Shown: positions 32,477 to 43,630 of the stretch, in pieces
How positions within the stretch are numbered: position 1 is the stretch's first letter
How the letters are laid out: the number at the start of each line of letters is the position of its first letter
NCBI RefSeq assembly: GCF_010093065.1
Contig: NZ_CP048113.1
Location: forward strand, 930,001-994,000
Reading direction: 5' to 3'
Origin: Chitinophaga agri
GTDB taxonomy: Bacteria; Bacteroidota; Bacteroidia; Chitinophagales; Chitinophagaceae
Length of the DNA stretch: 64,000 nt
Notes under the pieces: model-generated
The model's input: the letters and a program-made list of their open reading frames with translations, nothing else
Told to the model about the DNA's origin: nothing
Database searches by the model: none
Position numbers and translations under genes: made by a program

Positions 32477-33247
32477 ATGACTGCGATTCTGATATTCTTT
32501 TTTTCCCACTGGTTTTTGTCATTGTTCTTTCACACCTTTTTCCTGCATAGATATGCATCCCATCAGATGTATACTACGAGTAAAGGCTGGGAGAGAGTAT
32601 TTTACTTCTGTACCTGGTTCTTCCAGGGCACATCTTATTTAGTACCAAGAGCTTATGGTTCTATGCACCGCATGCACCATGAGTTTAGCGATACAGAACA
32701 TGATCCGCACTCTCCTCACTTTTTCAAGGACGTCTGGTCAATGATGTGGCAGACACGTAAACTATATAATGACATCTATGAAGGTAAAACCGTTGTGGAT
32801 GAGAAATTTACAAAGAATCCTCCGCTGCCGGTTTGGGATGCTATGGACCGTTTCGGCGACCATATTATCACCCGTCTGGCATGGGCCGCGGTTTATATTG
32901 GTTTCTATGTAGCATTCGCACCAGCCTGGTACTGGTATCTGCTGTTACCCGTGCATTTCCTGATCGGGCCTGTACAGGGAGCTGTGGTAAACTGGTGTGG
33001 TCATAAGTATGGTTACCGGAATTTCGAGAATGGTGACAAATCCCGCAATACCAGCCCATGGGGCATCTTGCTGCTGGGAGAGCTGTTCCAGAACAACCAC
33101 CACAAACACGGTGATAGCCCGAATTTTGCAAAGAAATGGTTTGAACTTGATCCTACCTATCCGGTAATGAAGTTTTTTAACTTCATCGGTATCATCAAAC
33201 TGAAAAAGCCGGAAGCTAAGGTGGTGAACCTGAAGGCGGCTGCATAA
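32477..33247 (+). CDS. Membrane fatty-acid desaturase
   Basis: 256-aa integral-membrane di-iron desaturase. The three histidine boxes are HRYASH, HRMHH and NNHHKH, all intact. Hydrophobic segments lie at about 1-22 and 130-175. It inserts a double bond into acyl chains and so adjusts membrane fluidity. The N-terminal helix is short, as in acyl-CoA/phospholipid delta-9 type bacterial desaturases. Regiospecificity cannot be read from sequence. Confidence 0.92.
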   Translation: MTAILIFFFSHWFLSLFFHTFFLHRYASHQMYTTSKGWERVFYFCTWFFQGTSYLVPRAYGSMHRMHHEFSDTEHDPHSPHFFKDVWSMMWQTRKLYNDIYEGKTVVDEKFTKNPPLPVWDAMDRFGDHIITRLAWAAVYIGFYVAFAPAWYWYLLLPVHFLIGPVQGAVVNWCGHKYGYRNFENGDKSRNTSPWGILLLGELFQNNHHKHGDSPNFAKKWFELDPTYPVMKFFNFIGIIKLKKPEAKVVNLKAAA

Positions 33248-33346: not shown

Positions 33347-33937
33347 CTAGAATTTCCTGAAGTAGCCGAAAGTCGCCATCTGCAGCATGGGTTTGTCACC
33401 GCTGGTGTCGCCATAGGCATAAATGTCTCCAAAAGCGGGCAGATCATATTTTTCACGGATGCGGCGTACCTTCTCTTCTCCGTTGCAATTGATGCCGTTG
33501 ATCCTGCCAGTCACTCTTGCATCCCTGATCTCCAGTTGTGTACCGATACATTCAATACCGATACAGTCCGCCCAGGGTTTTACCCATTCCTGAGCGGAAG
33601 CAGTTACTACCACGACGCGGTGCCCTTTGGATATATGCTGTTTGATTTCCTGTTCAGCAGTTTCCCGGATCAGGCCAGGCAGTTTGTCCCGACAGAACGC
33701 GGCGCATTTATCCCGGAACTCATCCACAGGCATATTGCGGAAAAAATATTGTAACACGATCTCCTTCGCCTTTTGTTTTGAGATCAGCTTACATTTCATC
33801 ATTACCAGTGCAGGCGCCAGCAACGCCAAACCAGCATATAGTGCTGCGTCTCCCTTCTGAAAGCGGATGATCTCAAACAGGGTATCCCGCCGGGTGATCG
33901 TCCCGTCAAAGTCAAAGAAGGCAATAGCAGGCTTCAT
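33347..33937 (-). CDS. HAD-IB family phosphatase, last gene of the arabinose-donor operon
   Basis: 196-aa HAD hydrolase of subfamily IB (SerB-like). Motif I is FFDFDGTITRRD, motif II is VVVTAS, and motif IV is YGDTSGDKPML. Its start codon overlaps the stop of the DprE2-like gene by 4 nt, so translation is coupled. The pathway context suggests it removes the 5-phosphate from polyprenyl-phospho-5-phosphoribose before epimerisation. In mycobacteria that step was assigned to an unrelated PAP2-type enzyme (Rv3807c). This role is inferred from the operon alone. Confidence 0.85.
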   Translation of the reverse strand: MKPAIAFFDFDGTITRRDTLFEIIRFQKGDAALYAGLALLAPALVMMKCKLISKQKAKEIVLQYFFRNMPVDEFRDKCAAFCRDKLPGLIRETAEQEIKQHISKGHRVVVVTASAQEWVKPWADCIGIECIGTQLEIRDARVTGRINGINCNGEEKVRRIREKYDLPAFGDIYAYGDTSGDKPMLQMATFGYFRKF

Positions 33938-34665
33938 AATTTCAGCTTTTTGAACATGAACTCAGGTATCGATTTGATAATGAGCATAATGTACCGCCAG
34001 AACCACCTCGTATAGATCTGATTCTTTTTTGCTTTGACGGCCCGGTAAATGTCCCTTGCGACATCCTGCGGCTGCGCAGTTAGCAGTGGGGGAAGTTTGA
34101 GGTTTTCCGTCATCCGGGTATACACGAATCCTGGTTGTACACTGAGCACATGTACACCTTTGTGGAACAGGCGGTTGCGGAGACCGCTGAGGTAAGCAGT
34201 AAAGCCAGCCTTCGCACTACCATACAGATAGTTGCTCTGCCGGCCGCGCTCTCCGGCTACCGAGCTGATACCTACAATGGTACCAGTACCACGGGTGGCA
34301 TAGTCTTCTGCGACAATATTTAAAATGGAAACGGCGCCTGTGTAGTTCGTATGTAGAATACGGCTGGCTTCATTCCAGTCAGCCTGCCCTTTTTCCTGTG
34401 ATCCGAGGTAGCCGAATACGGCTATTGTAATATCGGGTTTTACAGTCAGGGCGTTATAAAAAGCGGGGTGGCTGTTAAAATCAGTAGCATCGAAGGCATA
34501 GGTACTGGACTCCACGCCGTAGCGGATACGGAGGTCCTGCTCCAGTGGGGACAGGGATGCCTTGTTACGGGCTGCCAGTTGAATATCATATTTGTTACCG
34601 GCGAACTCACGGGCGATGGCAACAGCCATGTCTGACCCGGCTCCCAGAATAAGAACAGTAGGCAT
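33934..34665 (-). CDS. DprE2-like NADH-dependent reductase
   Basis: 243-aa short-chain dehydrogenase. LILGAGSDMAVAIAREFA binds the cofactor, SSVAGERGRQSNYLYGSAKAG gives the catalytic Ser, Tyr and Lys, and VQPGFVYTRM follows. The SSVAGER...YGSAKAG pattern is shared with mycobacterial DprE2, which reduces the 2-keto intermediate to decaprenylphosphoryl-D-arabinose. It lies 32 nt after the DprE1-like gene and overlaps the HAD gene. With DprE1 it would complete the 2'-epimerisation of the ribose lipid. Confidence 0.87.
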   Translation of the reverse strand: MPTVLILGAGSDMAVAIAREFAGNKYDIQLAARNKASLSPLEQDLRIRYGVESSTYAFDATDFNSHPAFYNALTVKPDITIAVFGYLGSQEKGQADWNEASRILHTNYTGAVSILNIVAEDYATRGTGTIVGISSVAGERGRQSNYLYGSAKAGFTAYLSGLRNRLFHKGVHVLSVQPGFVYTRMTENLKLPPLLTAQPQDVARDIYRAVKAKKNQIYTRWFWRYIMLIIKSIPEFMFKKLKL

Positions 34666-34697
34666 ATATTTGAAATCGGTATTTTAAGGTAGTTGCG

Positions 34698-36029
34698 TTA
34701 TTGCGTCAGCAGTAATCTGTCAGACTGTACTGAACGGAATAGCTTTTTACCGTTGTATTTTTTAATGATCTCGGCAAACTTTTGTGCATTGGGGTAGCTT
34801 TGCCAGAATACTTCCTGCTTCATGCGGGCATCTTTTGAGAGATAGAGGCGTCCGCCATATTGCAGCACAATTTCGTCCAGCTGGTCAAGGAATTCGAACA
34901 GTCCTTTACGTACCGGAAAGTCAAGGGCTAACGTATAGCCTTCCATCGGGAAGGAGATCAGGCTATCCTGTTTACCAAATACTTTCAGTACGGCCAGGAA
35001 AGAGCCCAGCCCTGCATCACTGATCTTTTTGAGGATAGCGACAAGACCTTCCTTCTTTTCAAGCGGGAGCACGAATTGATACTGAACAAAACCTGCTTTG
35101 CCATAACCACGGTTCCAGTGCAGAATGGCGTCCAGCGGATAGAAGAATGGCTCGTAAGGAATCACGTTGTTAATCTCCCTTTTGGTATTCTTCAGGTAGT
35201 ACAGCCAGTTAAACGCCTTAACAGTCAGTGTATTAAGTGTGAAAGAGGGAAGATTGAACGGCATGGACAGTTTACGTTTGGCCGTCAGGTGTAAGGGCGC
35301 TTTACGTTGCTGTTCATTCAGCTCCCCGGGGGTAGCATGTTCACCTACTATGAGGATGCCACGGCCGAAGGAATCGCCTTTCTGCAGGCAGTCGATCCAC
35401 GCCATGGAATATGTGTAATCTTTGTATTCTTCAAACAGGCGGATCAGATCTTCCAGGTTCTTCGCCTTGATCTGTTTCTGACGGATGTACGCAGTATCGA
35501 TCTTTTTCAGACCAAACTTCACCCGGGTAATAATACCGGTCAGCCCCATGCCACCGCAGGTTGCCCAAAACAGATCCGGCTCTTTTTCGGCGGAGCAGGT
35601 GACTGTATCCTGATTGCCTGTGATAACGTCCATCTCTATAATATGTCCTGAGAATGAGCCGTCCACGTGATGGTTTTTACCGTGTACGTCAGACGCTACT
35701 GCACCACCTACGGTAATGAATTTCGTACCGGGTGTAACCGGCAGGAACCATCCTTTGGGAACTATAATATCGAGGATCTGATCGAGTGTGATACCCGACT
35801 GACATTCGAAGACGCCATTCGTAGTATCAAAAGCCAGCACCTTATCGTATTTAAGGGTGGATACACTGTATTGTGCCAGTGAAGCATCGCCGTAACACCG
35901 ACCGTTTCCACGGGCGATAACAGCTGAATGGGAGGATATAAAATCCTGTACTTGTTCGTCCTGCGAAAACGTTGACTCATCGCAGGCGATAGCGGGGTAG
36001 TTCCCCCAGTTAGCTAACCGTTTTTCCAT
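34698..36029 (-). CDS. DprE1-like FAD-dependent oxidase
   Basis: 443-aa protein of the VAO/ALO-type FAD family. The FAD-binding part shows ARGNGRCYGDASL, PGTKFITVGGAVASDVHGKNHH and FWATCGGMGLTGII, closely matching mycobacterial DprE1. The C-terminal part has SFPMEGYTLALDFP and GGRLYLSKDAR. Lys399 corresponds to catalytic Lys418 of M. tuberculosis DprE1. Ala368 stands where Cys387, the residue trapped by benzothiazinones, is found. The enzyme should oxidise the 2-hydroxyl of polyprenyl-phospho-ribose. Its start overlaps the UbiA stop by 1 nt. Confidence 0.9.
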   Translation of the reverse strand: MEKRLANWGNYPAIACDESTFSQDEQVQDFISSHSAVIARGNGRCYGDASLAQYSVSTLKYDKVLAFDTTNGVFECQSGITLDQILDIIVPKGWFLPVTPGTKFITVGGAVASDVHGKNHHVDGSFSGHIIEMDVITGNQDTVTCSAEKEPDLFWATCGGMGLTGIITRVKFGLKKIDTAYIRQKQIKAKNLEDLIRLFEEYKDYTYSMAWIDCLQKGDSFGRGILIVGEHATPGELNEQQRKAPLHLTAKRKLSMPFNLPSFTLNTLTVKAFNWLYYLKNTKREINNVIPYEPFFYPLDAILHWNRGYGKAGFVQYQFVLPLEKKEGLVAILKKISDAGLGSFLAVLKVFGKQDSLISFPMEGYTLALDFPVRKGLFEFLDQLDEIVLQYGGRLYLSKDARMKQEVFWQSYPNAQKFAEIIKKYNGKKLFRSVQSDRLLLTQ

Positions 36030-36943
36030 TACTCAAAAAAACTTTTGTTAGTGGGTAAATAAATAATCACATAAAAACTCAGCACCCACAGGAGTATGGT
36101 TAATTGAATGAAACGGTCTTTGTATAGGATTTTGGTTGGAGAACCTGTATTATTCTCCACATATGTTATTTGCAAATATCGTAATAATCCACCAATTACA
36201 AAAAGACATGTATAATATAAGCGGTAGGTATGGAAGTTAGACATGGTCTCAGGCGCCATTGTATACATCAGATAGGACACAATGATCACCGCCGATACCA
36301 ATGCCAGCATTACATTTAAAAAATCCATATTGTATCCTTTGGACGCTTTGCGCATGTCTTTTCCGGATTGTGTTTTGATCAGCACATCATCCCTGCGTTT
36401 AGCAATGGCCATAAATAATGCCAGGAGGAATACCATGATCATCAGCCATTCGGATACGGCGAGATCCGCAGCTACACCTCCTGCTTTTACCCTCAGTACA
36501 AAGCCAGTGGACAGGATCAGTATATCCAGGATGGAAATATTTTTCAATCCCATCGAGTATAAAAGATTAATCACAAAATAAATACCCAGTACAAACGCAA
36601 ACTTGGGCTTAACGTAATATGCGAGGAGTGCACCAATGGCGAGGCACAACACAAAAAATACCAGTGCTGCCGGTTTAGACACTGCACCTGAGGCAATAGG
36701 CCGTTTACATTTTACCGGGTGTATCCGGTCTGCCTCTACGTCTTTATAATCATTAATAATGTAAATACTGCTGGCAATGAGGCTAAATGCAAAGAACCCG
36801 ATCAGTAACTCAATGACCTTGGAGAAAATGAATATTTCGCCCGCAAAGAAAAGTGGGATATACAAGAACAGATTTTTCGCCCAATGAGAGGGTCTTAATA
36901 ATTTTAAATATTGCACGGGGATATAACTTATAGTTGACGCCAA
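36029..36943 (-). CDS. UbiA-family polyprenyl-phosphate phosphoribosyltransferase
   Basis: 304-aa polytopic prenyltransferase-fold protein. The first Asp-rich motif is NDYKDVEADRIHP (Asn64-Asp72) and KRPIASG follows; the second is YSMGLKNISILDILIL. This matches decaprenyl-phosphate phosphoribosyltransferase (Rv3806c), which joins PRPP to polyprenyl phosphate, the first committed step to the arabinose donor. It leads the four-gene operon. The TTG at 36943 overlaps a -7-like TATCTTG, so a GTG at 36916, giving a start at VQYLKLLRPSHWAKN, may be the real one. Confidence 0.9.
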   Translation of the reverse strand: MASTISYIPVQYLKLLRPSHWAKNLFLYIPLFFAGEIFIFSKVIELLIGFFAFSLIASSIYIINDYKDVEADRIHPVKCKRPIASGAVSKPAALVFFVLCLAIGALLAYYVKPKFAFVLGIYFVINLLYSMGLKNISILDILILSTGFVLRVKAGGVAADLAVSEWLMIMVFLLALFMAIAKRRDDVLIKTQSGKDMRKASKGYNMDFLNVMLALVSAVIIVSYLMYTMAPETMSNFHTYRLYYTCLFVIGGLLRYLQITYVENNTGSPTKILYKDRFIQLTILLWVLSFYVIIYLPTNKSFFE

Positions 36944-37002
36944 GATACGGACTGATTATGGAACAACAATGCTAAAAAATGCTTATTTCGGGTAAATTCT
37001 AC

Positions 37003-37010
37003 TATTTTTG
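37003..37010 (+). promoter_or_regulatory. Bacteroidota -7 box for the GT-C-like gene
   Basis: TATTTTTG matches TAnnTTTG. It lies inside the long frame that begins at 36979 and 53 nt before ATG 37063, which argues that translation starts at 37063. Confidence 0.55.
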
Positions 37011-37062
37011 GGCCCGTTCATGTTCATTTATACTCGTTTTCACCATTTTATTATCCCCGTTT

Positions 37063-38760
37063 ATGCCGTCGACTTACGCTCCGTTCAGCCGGAAAGGTGC
37101 TTTTATTACGGAATTATTGATTATTGTTGGTCTGGCCCTGGTGCCTTTGTTTGTAACGTTTCCCTACAGGGTGAATATCTTTCTTTCCTGGGAAGGCGCT
37201 TACAGGATTTCTCAGGGGCAGCTACCTTACAAGGATTTTGGCCTGCCGCTGGGGTATGGTTTCTGGCTGATGCCTGCATTGTTCTTTAAATTATTTGGCG
37301 CCCAGCTCATTTCACTGGTGAAGGCACAGGTGTTTATGAACATCCTGGCAGGATTATCATTCCGTTCCATTCTGAAAAGTTTGAATGTAAAACCTGCGAT
37401 CAGGGTATTGTCTGTATTACTGTTCGTGCTTTCGTATTCGTTCTTCAATTTCTGGCCCTGGTATAATCAGACGGTTATTGTCTACGAGTTGGTCGGACTC
37501 GCATTCCTCTTCCGCTTCCTGACGGGACCAGCAGGTAAAGTACGTTATGTGTTCCTTTTTCTGTCTGCCGCCTTTACATTCCTGTCTTTCTTTACCAAAC
37601 AGGATGGTGGTGGACTCGCATTGTTGCTGTCCCTTGCCTTGCTGGGATATCATGCGCTGGAAGGGAAACGCTGGCTGGATGTGCCGGTTTTTCTCGCCTT
37701 TTATGGACTGGTCGCTGCAGCTGTCATTGTGCCGTTGCTGCCTTACGGTTTTGGCTATTGGTTCAATCATGGTCAGGCACCGCACAACTCACGTTTATCA
37801 TTATATGACATCCTTTCTGAGGTGATGGGTGCTTCCCAATGGATCAAATTCTACTTTGTGATGGTGGTAATCTGCCTCATACCGGCATTCCGCAACTGGA
37901 AAGCTTTCTGGAAGAAACGAGAGGCAATGCTGTTCACCCTGCTGACGTTGGGAATACTAGTGGAAGCCGCTATTTTCCAGGTCACGAGTTATACTCCGCC
38001 GGACAATAATATATTCTTCCATGCTTTTGCCTTTGCATTTATTGCCAGCCGCTTACAGGACCAGCTGGAACTAAAGATCGAGCGTTGGCCTTCTTTCGGT
38101 CTGGCAGCCGCGTTGGTTTTATTGTGGTGGTCCGGGTCTTTCTGGAAATACCTGGACAGAATTGTAGCACGTGTCGTTCCACATGAGCAGGTGATCGCAG
38201 GTAAAGGAAATGTCGCAGTTGCTGATAGCAGTAATTATGCGATCTACAATCCACAGGTAAGTAAGACGGGAGAGAATGTCGTGTCCCGGAATAACTTCAT
38301 GCTGAATACCGATACTACCGATGTGCCTGTAGAGAAATGGATCTTCTCCGATCTCTGGGCTTTTCACAAAATCTATATGCCACCTTCAACAGTCGAGGGC
38401 ATGAAACGGTTGATGGCGATGCCTGTTGTGAAGGAGAAGAAAGGGACGCTTAAGCTGCTGAATATGACGGAATTAACACCGCTAGCGCAGGCGATGCCCT
38501 ATAAGCTGGAGACAGGTAGTGACTACCCTTTATGGTATCACCTGGGTGTAGGCATGTTCAACAAACAGCTGGAGATGTTCAGCAATAAGGTGAAAAACCA
38601 TTACTTTGACGTCGTGTTATACGAATATGCGCCGGGTAATAACAACTTCTTCCCGTTCGCGTTAAGGTATGAGCTGCAACAGCATTACCGTAAAGTAGAT
38701 GAATTCCTGGCGCCCCGTCGCCCGACGAATGCCATCATTGAGGTGTTCGTAGCTGAATAG
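37063..38760 (+). CDS. GT-C-like polytopic membrane protein, candidate arabinosyltransferase
   Basis: 565-aa protein with about ten hydrophobic segments and a soluble C-terminal domain of about 190 residues. After the first helix lies FLSWEGAYRISQGQLPYKDFGLPLGYGF, an acidic-residue loop plus PYKDF pattern as in GT-C glycosyltransferases that use polyprenyl-phosphate sugars. It is divergent from the polyprenyl-phospho-arabinose operon with about 120 bp between, so it may use that donor. ATG 37063 is preferred over 36979 because a promoter box lies between. The transferase role is inference; no family name can be given with certainty. Confidence 0.7.
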   Translation: MPSTYAPFSRKGAFITELLIIVGLALVPLFVTFPYRVNIFLSWEGAYRISQGQLPYKDFGLPLGYGFWLMPALFFKLFGAQLISLVKAQVFMNILAGLSFRSILKSLNVKPAIRVLSVLLFVLSYSFFNFWPWYNQTVIVYELVGLAFLFRFLTGPAGKVRYVFLFLSAAFTFLSFFTKQDGGGLALLLSLALLGYHALEGKRWLDVPVFLAFYGLVAAAVIVPLLPYGFGYWFNHGQAPHNSRLSLYDILSEVMGASQWIKFYFVMVVICLIPAFRNWKAFWKKREAMLFTLLTLGILVEAAIFQVTSYTPPDNNIFFHAFAFAFIASRLQDQLELKIERWPSFGLAAALVLLWWSGSFWKYLDRIVARVVPHEQVIAGKGNVAVADSSNYAIYNPQVSKTGENVVSRNNFMLNTDTTDVPVEKWIFSDLWAFHKIYMPPSTVEGMKRLMAMPVVKEKKGTLKLLNMTELTPLAQAMPYKLETGSDYPLWYHLGVGMFNKQLEMFSNKVKNHYFDVVLYEYAPGNNNFFPFALRYELQQHYRKVDEFLAPRRPTNAIIEVFVAE

Positions 38761-38783: not shown

Positions 38784-39698
38784 ATGCCCAATAAACCGGA
38801 TACTACAAAGCTCTGGACATTCTTATTTGCAGTCTATATTATTTGGGGATCTACCTATCTGGGGATGAAAATCGCCACGGAGGTAGTTCCCCCTTTTTTA
38901 TTATCAGCCTTTCGTTTCCTCGTAGCAGGGACCATCATGGTTTGTATAGGCTGGCGAAGCGAAAAGCAACTGCCTACCCGGAAACAGTTTTTGTCAGCCG
39001 CCTTCGTGGGACTGATGCTGATCGGAATCGGTAATTCAACTACTGCATTGGCGGTGCATTACATGCCATCCGGACTAGTGGCTTTAATCGTAGCCGCCAT
39101 ACCGGTATGGTTTATAGGTCTGGACTGGGCCTTTTTCAGTAAGCAGCGGCCCACACTGATGACGGTGACGGGTATTCTGATCGGTCTGGCGGGCCTGTTC
39201 CTGTTATTCAATCCTTTTTCGGCTGACCATAGCAGGGACTATCCATTATGGCCGCTGGTAGTGCTGGCTGCTGGAATGGCTTGCTGGACGCTGGGCTCAT
39301 TATCAGTTCCCAGACTGTCTATGCCGGCACCTATGACATCGGCAGGTTTGCAGATGCTAACAGGGGCAGTATTTTGTTTTTTAGTCAGCAGTGTAACGGA
39401 GGATGACGCCTGGAGCACATTGCATCACCTAAGTACCAGAACGATCAGTGCTTACCTCTACCTGGTCTTTATGGGCTCGCTGGTGGGCTTTACTTCTTAT
39501 AGCTGGCTGACGCGTAACGCGCCACCACGGCTATTATCGACCTACGCATATGTAAACCCGGTAGTAGCACTGTTCCTGGGATGGGCGATCGGGCACGAAA
39601 GTTTGTCTGCAAGAACACTGACCGCCTGTGCGATCGTTATTGGTGGGGTGATATTGATGACGCTAGGCAAAAGGAAAGTGCAGGATAATAAAAAATGA
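38784..39698 (+). CDS. EamA/DMT-family exporter
   Basis: 304-aa protein with ten hydrophobic segments in two EamA repeats (about 10-140 and 155-295). FAVYIIWGSTYLGMKIATEVVPPFLLSAFRFLVAG-type N-terminus and LLSTYAYVNPVVALFLGWAIGHE are typical of the RhaT/YedA group. Members export amino acids or metabolites by proton antiport. Substrate unknown. It follows the GT-C-like gene by 23 nt and is probably co-transcribed. Confidence 0.9.
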   Translation: MPNKPDTTKLWTFLFAVYIIWGSTYLGMKIATEVVPPFLLSAFRFLVAGTIMVCIGWRSEKQLPTRKQFLSAAFVGLMLIGIGNSTTALAVHYMPSGLVALIVAAIPVWFIGLDWAFFSKQRPTLMTVTGILIGLAGLFLLFNPFSADHSRDYPLWPLVVLAAGMACWTLGSLSVPRLSMPAPMTSAGLQMLTGAVFCFLVSSVTEDDAWSTLHHLSTRTISAYLYLVFMGSLVGFTSYSWLTRNAPPRLLSTYAYVNPVVALFLGWAIGHESLSARTLTACAIVIGGVILMTLGKRKVQDNKK

Positions 39699-43300: not shown

Positions 43301-43630
43301 TTGTTGGCATTGCGTATGGCAAGGGTGTTCCTTCAAAAGATCAATTTGCAGCGCGCCTTTCAGTCAAAGAATGAGCGGAGGCGACATAAGATTACAGCAG
43401 ATGCTTTACTGGACTTCCCAACCAGCCTGATAATCAGTTGGTCAGGTATGAGAGGGATCGTCTCACTGGCGATAGCGATTGGGCTGCCGGTTACGCTTGA
43501 AAGCGGCGCGCCATTCCCACTACGTAATGAGATCATCTTTATATCAGTGGCTGTTGTGTTGTTTACATTGCTTGGACAGGGGCTCACCTTACCCTGGATC
43601 GTAAAGCAGCTGAAGCGGCATAAATCTTAG
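43301..43630 (+). pseudogene. C-terminal remnant of a CPA1 Na+/H+ antiporter
   Basis: 109-codon frame whose product matches only the end of CPA1 (NhaP-type) antiporters. SWSGMRGIVSLAIAIGLP is the conserved late transmembrane motif. EIIFISVAVVLFTLLGQGLTLPWIVKQL is the last helix of the family. The first roughly 350-400 residues, including the ion-binding helices, are absent. An intact protein would be about 500 aa, so this cannot transport. It directly follows the TPP riboswitch terminator and overlaps the convergent DUF763 stop by 4 nt. I read it as a deletion product. Confidence 0.85.

Follow-up and report, generated by a model that had tools for sequence, protein, structure and literature searches.

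A putative operon for lipid-linked D-arabinofuranose and a divergent GT-C fold protein in Chitinophaga agri

D-Arabinofuranose (D-Araf) is best known as the sugar of mycobacterial arabinan, and its synthesis is a target of tuberculosis drugs. In the mycobacterial decaprenylphosphoryl-arabinose pathway, the UbiA protein Rv3806c, the phosphatase Rv3807c, DprE1, DprE2 and the Emb/Aft enzymes provide for phosphoribosyl transfer from phosphoribosyl pyrophosphate (PRPP), 5'-dephosphorylation, C2 epimerisation and GT-C transfer. The same steps are expected of the five-gene locus described here, which lies in a 64,000-nucleotide stretch (positions 930001-994000, hereafter the window) of the single-contig, 7.97 Mb genome of Chitinophaga agri, a member of the Chitinophagaceae. 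A second precedent is the three-component pentofuranose system of Citrobacter youngae (ORF12/13/14/15), in which, according to the main text of Kelly et al. 2024 (PMC11127046), UbiA and a HAD phosphatase make the donor, as would be the case here, and a GT-C protein of its own family spends it. The same main text describes the UbiA-HAD route and GT-C transfer (GT136) and reports DprE1/DprE2 homologues in Araf systems outside mycobacteria, for Araf side chains. Because of that description, both the pathway and the HAD solution must be regarded as already known, and the novelty implied when the pathway was first read from the letters of the window (the original prediction) gives way to the 2024 publication of a pathway outside mycobacteria with DprE1/DprE2 homologues.

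Based on family matches and gene neighbourhoods, we propose that four minus-strand genes form an operon that makes a polyprenyl-phosphate-linked D-Araf donor, and that the enzyme using this donor is the product of the divergent gene; we put the probability of this reading at about three in four. The locus was predicted to hold four overlapping or tightly spaced minus-strand genes beside a divergent polytopic gene, and it does. The open reading frames (ORFs) are intact at the coordinates of Table 1, with the four minus-strand genes inside 33347-36916; coordinates place a 1-base overlap between the UbiA and DprE1-like genes, 32 bases between the DprE1-like and DprE2-like genes, and a 4-base overlap between the DprE2-like and HAD genes.

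The GT-C and oxidase genes occur together across the family. Among 244 Chitinophagaceae genomes (DprE1 at E <= 1e-60, GT-C at E <= 1e-10), DprE1 was found in 61 and GT-C in 56, all of them within the 61, and none of the 183 genomes without DprE1 carried GT-C (Fisher p = 8e-50, a statistic that ignores relatedness; by genus, 28 of 101 for DprE1 and 25 for GT-C). In a phylum sample of 296 genomes, seven had GT-C, each together with a strong DprE1. We then considered 80 named GT-C loci, the best 80 of 200 confirmed stretches, some of which end at contig ends: within 6 kb of the GT-C gene lay UbiA in 77, DprE2 in 74, HAD in 73, DprE1 in 64 and all four genes in 58, and DprE2 directly adjoined DprE1 in 62 of the 64 loci with DprE1. 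Five loci are collinear, with UbiA on the GT-C strand; four from Chitinophaga (L134, L135, L137, L143) have the order UbiA-DprE1-DprE2-HAD-GTC, and one from Thermoflavifilum (L199) has UbiA-GTC-DprE1-DprE2. A failure of the genes to be conserved together had been named in advance as evidence that would tell against the pathway; this survey of Bacteroidota neighbourhoods finds them co-conserved, both by genome (56 of 56) and by locus (77 of 80 for UbiA, 58 of 80 for the full set).

The first enzyme can be assigned by its family matches. The UbiA protein passes the decaprenyl-phosphate phosphoribosyltransferase model NF008977 (252.6 bits, cut-off 234) and aligns with mycobacterial PDB 8j8j at E=1.6e-38 over residues 12-289 of 304. 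Residues N64, D65, D68, D72, K78, R81, K182 and R183 (numbered on the 304-aa ORF) are kept in all 137 aligned homologues, and the ND..D...D motif and the basic residues have counterparts in the 8j8j alignment. Citrobacter ORF15 requires the N, D, D and D positions (Kelly et al. 2024, PMC11127046, main text). Five more UbiA-family proteins of the genome belong with prenyltransferase models of another kind (UbiA/MqnP-like, haem o synthase, PRK12872, EboC) or with no model, so that the operon UbiA is the sole phosphoribosyltransferase candidate found in the genome.

Matches to the DprE1 and DprE2 models extend over almost the whole of the oxidase and the reductase, respectively. The oxidase aligns with PDB 4aut at E=1.8e-84 over residues 3-440 of 443, keeps the HGKNHH region, and shares with all 134 aligned sequences the lysine of LYLSKDAR, which we take to be catalytic. 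It is the only DprE1 found in the genome, where the remaining matches reach just 20.8 and 19.5 bits. The reductase passes NF005489 (PRK07102; 353.3 bits, cut-off 267), and its Y148 and K152 are kept in 128 of 128 aligned homologues. Since both proteins score below the equivalog cut-offs (420.1 against 500 bits for NF053785, 208.8 against 250 for NF053786), we call them DprE1-like and DprE2-like; the four gene assignments originally made hold by family, short of equivalog status for these two. No genome of the 296 in the phylum sample reaches the NF053785 cut-off. In a separate observation, the mycobacterial cysteine of the CVDFP stretch is replaced by alanine in the window's oxidase (GYTLALDFP), and the 134 aligned sequences have Ala in 128, Thr in five, Ser in one and Cys in none.

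For the phosphatase step, the HAD protein passes TIGR01490 (HAD-IB; 134.5 bits, cut-off 98.3). In an alignment of 75 homologues of 185-210 aa, drawn from 107 found, D9, D11, K156, D177 and D181 are kept in all 75, and position 112 is Thr or Ser throughout. Further support comes from the way in which HAD and UbiA genes are combined in 40 phylum-level loci (L080-L119), fetched from the 63 phylum-sample genomes with strong DprE1 (E <= 5.5e-77). Sixteen of these encode a long UbiA (440 aa or more), all without a separate HAD gene; seven have a short UbiA with HAD, and ten a short UbiA without HAD. In the remaining seven, the stretch contains no UbiA, and L085 among them has HAD. Across all 107 fetched loci with HAD, which include some genomes fetched twice, UbiA is short in 105, not found in two and long in none. 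The one long UbiA checked in Pfam has an N-terminal HAD domain (27.4 bits, cut-off 27), and a joint alignment of the N-terminal parts of the 16 long UbiA proteins matches the free HAD with 98.6% hhalign probability at 24% identity. A divergent PAP2 gene separates UbiA from DprE1 in two of the ten loci that have a short UbiA and no HAD: L090, where Pfam identifies it, and L094, where similarity to L090 does. From these arrangements, the phosphatase step appears to occur in three forms, namely a free HAD, a UbiA-fused HAD and a PAP2 gene. The suggestion that HAD stands in for a PAP2-type phosphatase gains from this modularity, and it has a precedent because a HAD domain performs the 5'-dephosphorylation in Citrobacter ORF15 (PMC11127046, main text).

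The GT-C protein itself has no significant sequence match in Pfam, NCBIfam or PDB. Its predicted model shows a GT-C membrane fold (pTM 0.85; low-confidence parts include residues 378-401 and 414-418), and structure comparison with VIA-align places it closest to Pmt4, Pmt1-Pmt2 and ArnT. The structure search suggested at the outset thus returned the fold class that was anticipated, with Pmt/ArnT as nearest neighbours instead of the Emb/Aft arabinosyltransferases. Because its nearest folds are protein mannosyltransferases and ArnT, the fold reveals neither sugar nor acceptor, and the predicted role as transferase rests on the fold class together with the co-occurrence with DprE1. Candidates for a catalytic acid behind the first membrane helix, taken from the alignment, are Glu44 (107 of 108 aligned sequences, Asp in one) and Asp58 (108 of 108). 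A PDB profile search, Emb and Aft structures included, gave a best E=0.16 with unrelated names. When five relatives of the GT-C protein were searched in Pfam with E values of up to 10 allowed, nothing exceeded its cut-off, the best being Wzy_C (O-antigen ligase) in L185 only (E=0.0028, 17.9 bits, cut-off 31.7), and further sub-cut-off matches were GldL_N in two relatives and MerC in one. The family looks new in having no entry in the libraries compared (Pfam, NCBIfam and PDB). As a regular partner, we also considered a second GT-C-like protein of the PMT_2 type (L185:2565-3764) and rejected it, as it occurs in only 6 of 244 genomes at E <= 1e-15.

Table 1. Features of the locus (window coordinates) and members of the unlinked oxidase clade
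Feature	Position	Strand	Basis or members
UbiA-family polyprenyl-phosphate phosphoribosyltransferase (predicted)	36029..36916	-	NF008977, PDB 8j8j, conserved motif
DprE1-like FAD oxidase	34698..36029	-	NF053785 below cut-off, PDB 4aut, conserved Lys
DprE2-like SDR reductase	33934..34665	-	NF005489; NF053786 below cut-off; Y148, K152
HAD-IB phosphatase, proposed 5'-phosphatase of polyprenyl-phosphate ribose-5-phosphate	33347..33937	-	TIGR01490, HAD motifs
GT-C fold protein, proposed arabinofuranosyltransferase, 565 aa	37063..38760	+	predicted fold
Divergent intergenic region UbiA/GT-C	36917..37062	.	146 bp counting from GTG start of UbiA
Unlinked DprE1 clade members			L043, L051, L053, L055, L061, L062, L064, L066, L069, L071, L073

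The oxidase is not always encoded at the cluster. In twelve family genomes, all with GT-C, the only DprE1 is one of 42-46% identity, and four more have both kinds. The GT-C clusters fetched, from nine of the twelve, retain UbiA, DprE2, HAD and GT-C in every case and DprE1 in none; the tenth, G409, has two GT-C genes, neither with an adjoining UbiA. Fourteen named loci have UbiA without DprE1 within 6 kb, and four of them (L175, L188, L192, L198) belong to the nine genomes with unlinked DprE1. In a FastTree phylogeny of 108 of the 134 DprE1 sequences (26 were omitted to thin Chitinophaga and similar rows), the eleven unlinked sequences fetched form one clade with support 0.997, and HGKAHH replaces HGKNHH in all 11 and in none of the 123 others. 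It seems that the linked oxidase was replaced by an unlinked one while the remaining pathway was retained.

Genes that might supply the flippase and the acceptor lie, if anywhere, beyond the operon. An EamA transporter gene (38784-39698) follows the GT-C gene on the same strand after 23 bases, and EamA lies within 6 kb of GT-C in 42 of the 80 named loci. By clustering it is present in 44 loci, 43 of which are the window or L120-L168; L197 (Chitinophaga niabensis) also has EamA. We therefore rejected EamA as a conserved flippase part, since it is a neighbour in Chitinophaga only, as expected of genus synteny; it may still serve as a flippase locally. A fatty-acid desaturase gene (32477-33247) was set aside as a conserved partner, all 36 loci with the gene belonging to the same Chitinophaga group, as were the two GtrA flippases of the genome, neither of which is near the operon; their neighbours are, we presume, an inositol-phosphate-synthase-like gene and a carboxylase-like gene. 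In another lineage, a GtrA-type gene between a long UbiA and DprE1 (L083:7774-8175) is a candidate flippase.

In L199 of Thermoflavifilum, genes for a GT4 glycosyltransferase, a PMT-like protein and a Wzx/MATE-type flippase adjoin the operon; the similar loci L057 (G007) and L058 (G399) also have GT4 and the PMT-like protein, and L057 a methyltransferase too. A GT4 homologue is encoded in C. agri at 1301547-1302734, about 0.33 Mb from the operon, and is followed within about 15 kb by a flippase, a methyltransferase and further glycosyltransferase-like genes (translations judged by eye). When the close relative L205, with genes typed by Pfam, was used for comparison, its methyltransferase proved 53% identical to that of L057 and its flippase 25% identical to that of L199. 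GT4 is enriched and not an obligate partner: at E <= 1e-40 it occurs in 90 of 244 genomes, 50 of them among the 61 with DprE1, which leaves 40 GT4 genomes without DprE1 and 11 DprE1 genomes without GT4. Because relatives of its genes join the operon in Thermoflavifilum, this polysaccharide locus is our best lead to the acceptor, a suggestive one only, and we consider a surface polysaccharide or a glycolipid the most likely acceptor.

We propose that UbiA would transfer phosphoribose from PRPP to give polyprenyl-phosphate ribose-5-phosphate, from which HAD-IB would remove the 5'-phosphate, a role suggested by the fused HAD that takes its place elsewhere and by the PAP2 gene that does so in two loci. 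The DprE1-like oxidase and DprE2-like reductase would, by analogy with their families, invert C2 and convert ribose to arabinose. A flippase encoded outside the operon, conceivably the Wzx/MATE-type protein of the polysaccharide locus at 1.31 Mb, might then turn the lipid outwards, and the GT-C protein would transfer D-Araf to an extracytoplasmic acceptor, an activity suggested by its fold and co-occurrence. A fuller version of this proposal is one that we favour by a small degree over its negation: that the GT-C protein represents a new family of D-arabinofuranosyltransferases, and that about a quarter of Chitinophagaceae carry a D-Araf-decorated surface glycan, made with a separate HAD and with a flippase taken from a polysaccharide locus, the unlinked DprE1 clade having repeatedly supplanted the linked gene.

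Several observations weigh against a dedicated donor operon with its own transferase, and some would suit other explanations. The donor could be made as proposed while the GT-C protein moves another lipid-linked sugar, for instance an aminopentose or mannose, its linkage to the operon reflecting only that both act on a shared glycan. That its nearest structural neighbours are Pmt4, Pmt1-Pmt2 and ArnT, not Emb/Aft, would fit, as would loci L179 and L180, in which none of the four genes lies within 6 kb of GT-C. The explanation is nevertheless unlikely, given that GT-C is missing from all 183 family genomes without DprE1 even though the two are unlinked in some genomes, that collinear operons exist, and that none of the five genes encodes a separate synthase of some other lipid-linked sugar. 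Somewhat more doubtful is the idea that HAD is a housekeeping serine or histidinol phosphatase carried along, with the true 5'-phosphatase elsewhere. Against its low scores with the histidinol-phosphatase (57.4 bits, cut-off 280) and SerB (22.3, cut-off 144) models, and against the Thermoflavifilum-type loci L057, L058 and L199, which have neither HAD nor another recognised phosphatase at the cluster, stand the presence of HAD near GT-C in 73 of 80 loci, its absence from all 16 long-UbiA loci, the free HAD-IB adjoining UbiA in a Lactococcus capsule-type locus, and the biochemistry already reported for a HAD domain at this point of the pathway (PMC11127046, main text). We consider least probable that the product is ribofuranose or another pentose and that the DprE1/DprE2-like proteins act on something else. 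Their scores below the equivalog cut-offs, the separability of the oxidase from the operon in the unlinked clade, and the 40 phylum loci, in which DprE2 was found beside DprE1 in 29 and not in 11, all lean that way; the near-complete alignment of the oxidase with a solved DprE1 structure, its retained HGKNHH region and lysine, the invariant Tyr and Lys of the reductase, and the adjacency of the pair in 62 of 64 loci argue for D-Araf.

Other points also tell against the donor operon and its transferase. GT-C is lacking from five of the 61 family genomes with DprE1 (G342, G349, G442, G479 and G527, the DprE1 match of G442 being only 32%) and, in the phylum sample, from 56 of the 63 genomes with a strong DprE1; these 56 must therefore use another transferase, if any. 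The UbiA gene is split over two ORFs in L157, no phosphatase was recognised in eight of the ten short-UbiA phylum loci without HAD, and the operon contains no flippase and no acceptor gene. Among the matches listed, judged by titles and the starts of abstracts, literature on Chitinophaga contained no report of D-Araf.

Gene starts were judged by comparison with relatives. For UbiA, translation probably begins later than the TTG at 36943, the GTG at 36916 fitting many 295-aa relatives. A mechanical rule places the polytopic ORF at 36979-38760; relatives of 565 aa favour 37063, the start originally given. A scan for sigma-70 promoters found 18 promoter-like sites against 11.2 expected (sd 3.7); we judge it uninformative because Bacteroidota promoters differ from the sigma-70 type.

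UbiA relatives also turned up in other settings. On a 54-kb Flammeovirgaceae plasmid (L208, CP139022.1), UbiA has 63% identity to that of the window, and the genes after it encode, by annotation, an FAD-binding oxidoreductase and an SDR oxidoreductase, and a hypothetical protein of 406 aa. The Lactococcus plasmid locus (L209, NZ_PP589792.1) combines a phosphoribosyltransferase UbiA with GtrA, a hypothetical protein of 533 aa and a free HAD-IB that shares 28% identity with the HAD of the window; DprE1/E2 are absent among its listed genes, and the locus resembles the same scheme adapted to ribofuranose. The 533-aa and 406-aa proteins were tried as GT-C relatives and rejected, neither matching the GT-C profile. 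A UbiA 45% identical to the window's occurs in MT837543.1, a 6.6-kb unannotated record deposited as Bacteriophage sp. from human faecal samples. In L095, L107, L108 and L113, a 562-577-aa protein with an initial HTHLPYVL motif, which we presume to be GH57-like, is encoded directly before UbiA. Elsewhere in the window, a 109-aa ORF at 43301-43630 reads, by eye, like the C-terminal piece of a sodium/proton antiporter and is possibly a gene remnant.

A compact route of this kind in culturable Bacteroidota would provide a simple Gram-negative model of D-Araf synthesis. It would also open a new GT-C transferase family to enzyme assays and offer phosphatase and oxidase steps that vary in nature. From the presence of the route, moreover, one can predict in which Bacteroidota envelope D-Araf is to be expected, and such predictions are directly checkable.

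Compared with the mycobacterial pathway, a free HAD-IB here would replace Rv3807c, a single GT-C protein with no detected sequence relative in PDB, Emb/Aft structures included, would take the last step, and there is no linked flippase and a Gram-negative envelope. Given that envelope, we assume that the lipid carrier is probably undecaprenyl. Among the matches listed, the open-licence literature on DprE1 with Bacteroidetes or Bacteroidota included no paper on the pathway there. The main text of Kelly et al. 2024 (PMC11127046) has no word starting with "bacteroid". Going by that text, the Citrobacter youngae system differs in that HAD is a domain there and a separate gene here, that the operon here has no MATE flippase, and that epimerisation is assigned to ORF13 there and to DprE1/DprE2 here. 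Pseudomonas pilin arabinosylation, as presented in the same main text, shares with the operon a UbiA homologue and a proposed Araf end product; its acceptor is pilin, and its phosphatase is of another family in P. aeruginosa and fused to UbiA in P. syringae. What is new in C. agri is that the pathway is set in a member of the Bacteroidota with HAD as a gene of its own, together with a GT-C family that no library entry covers.

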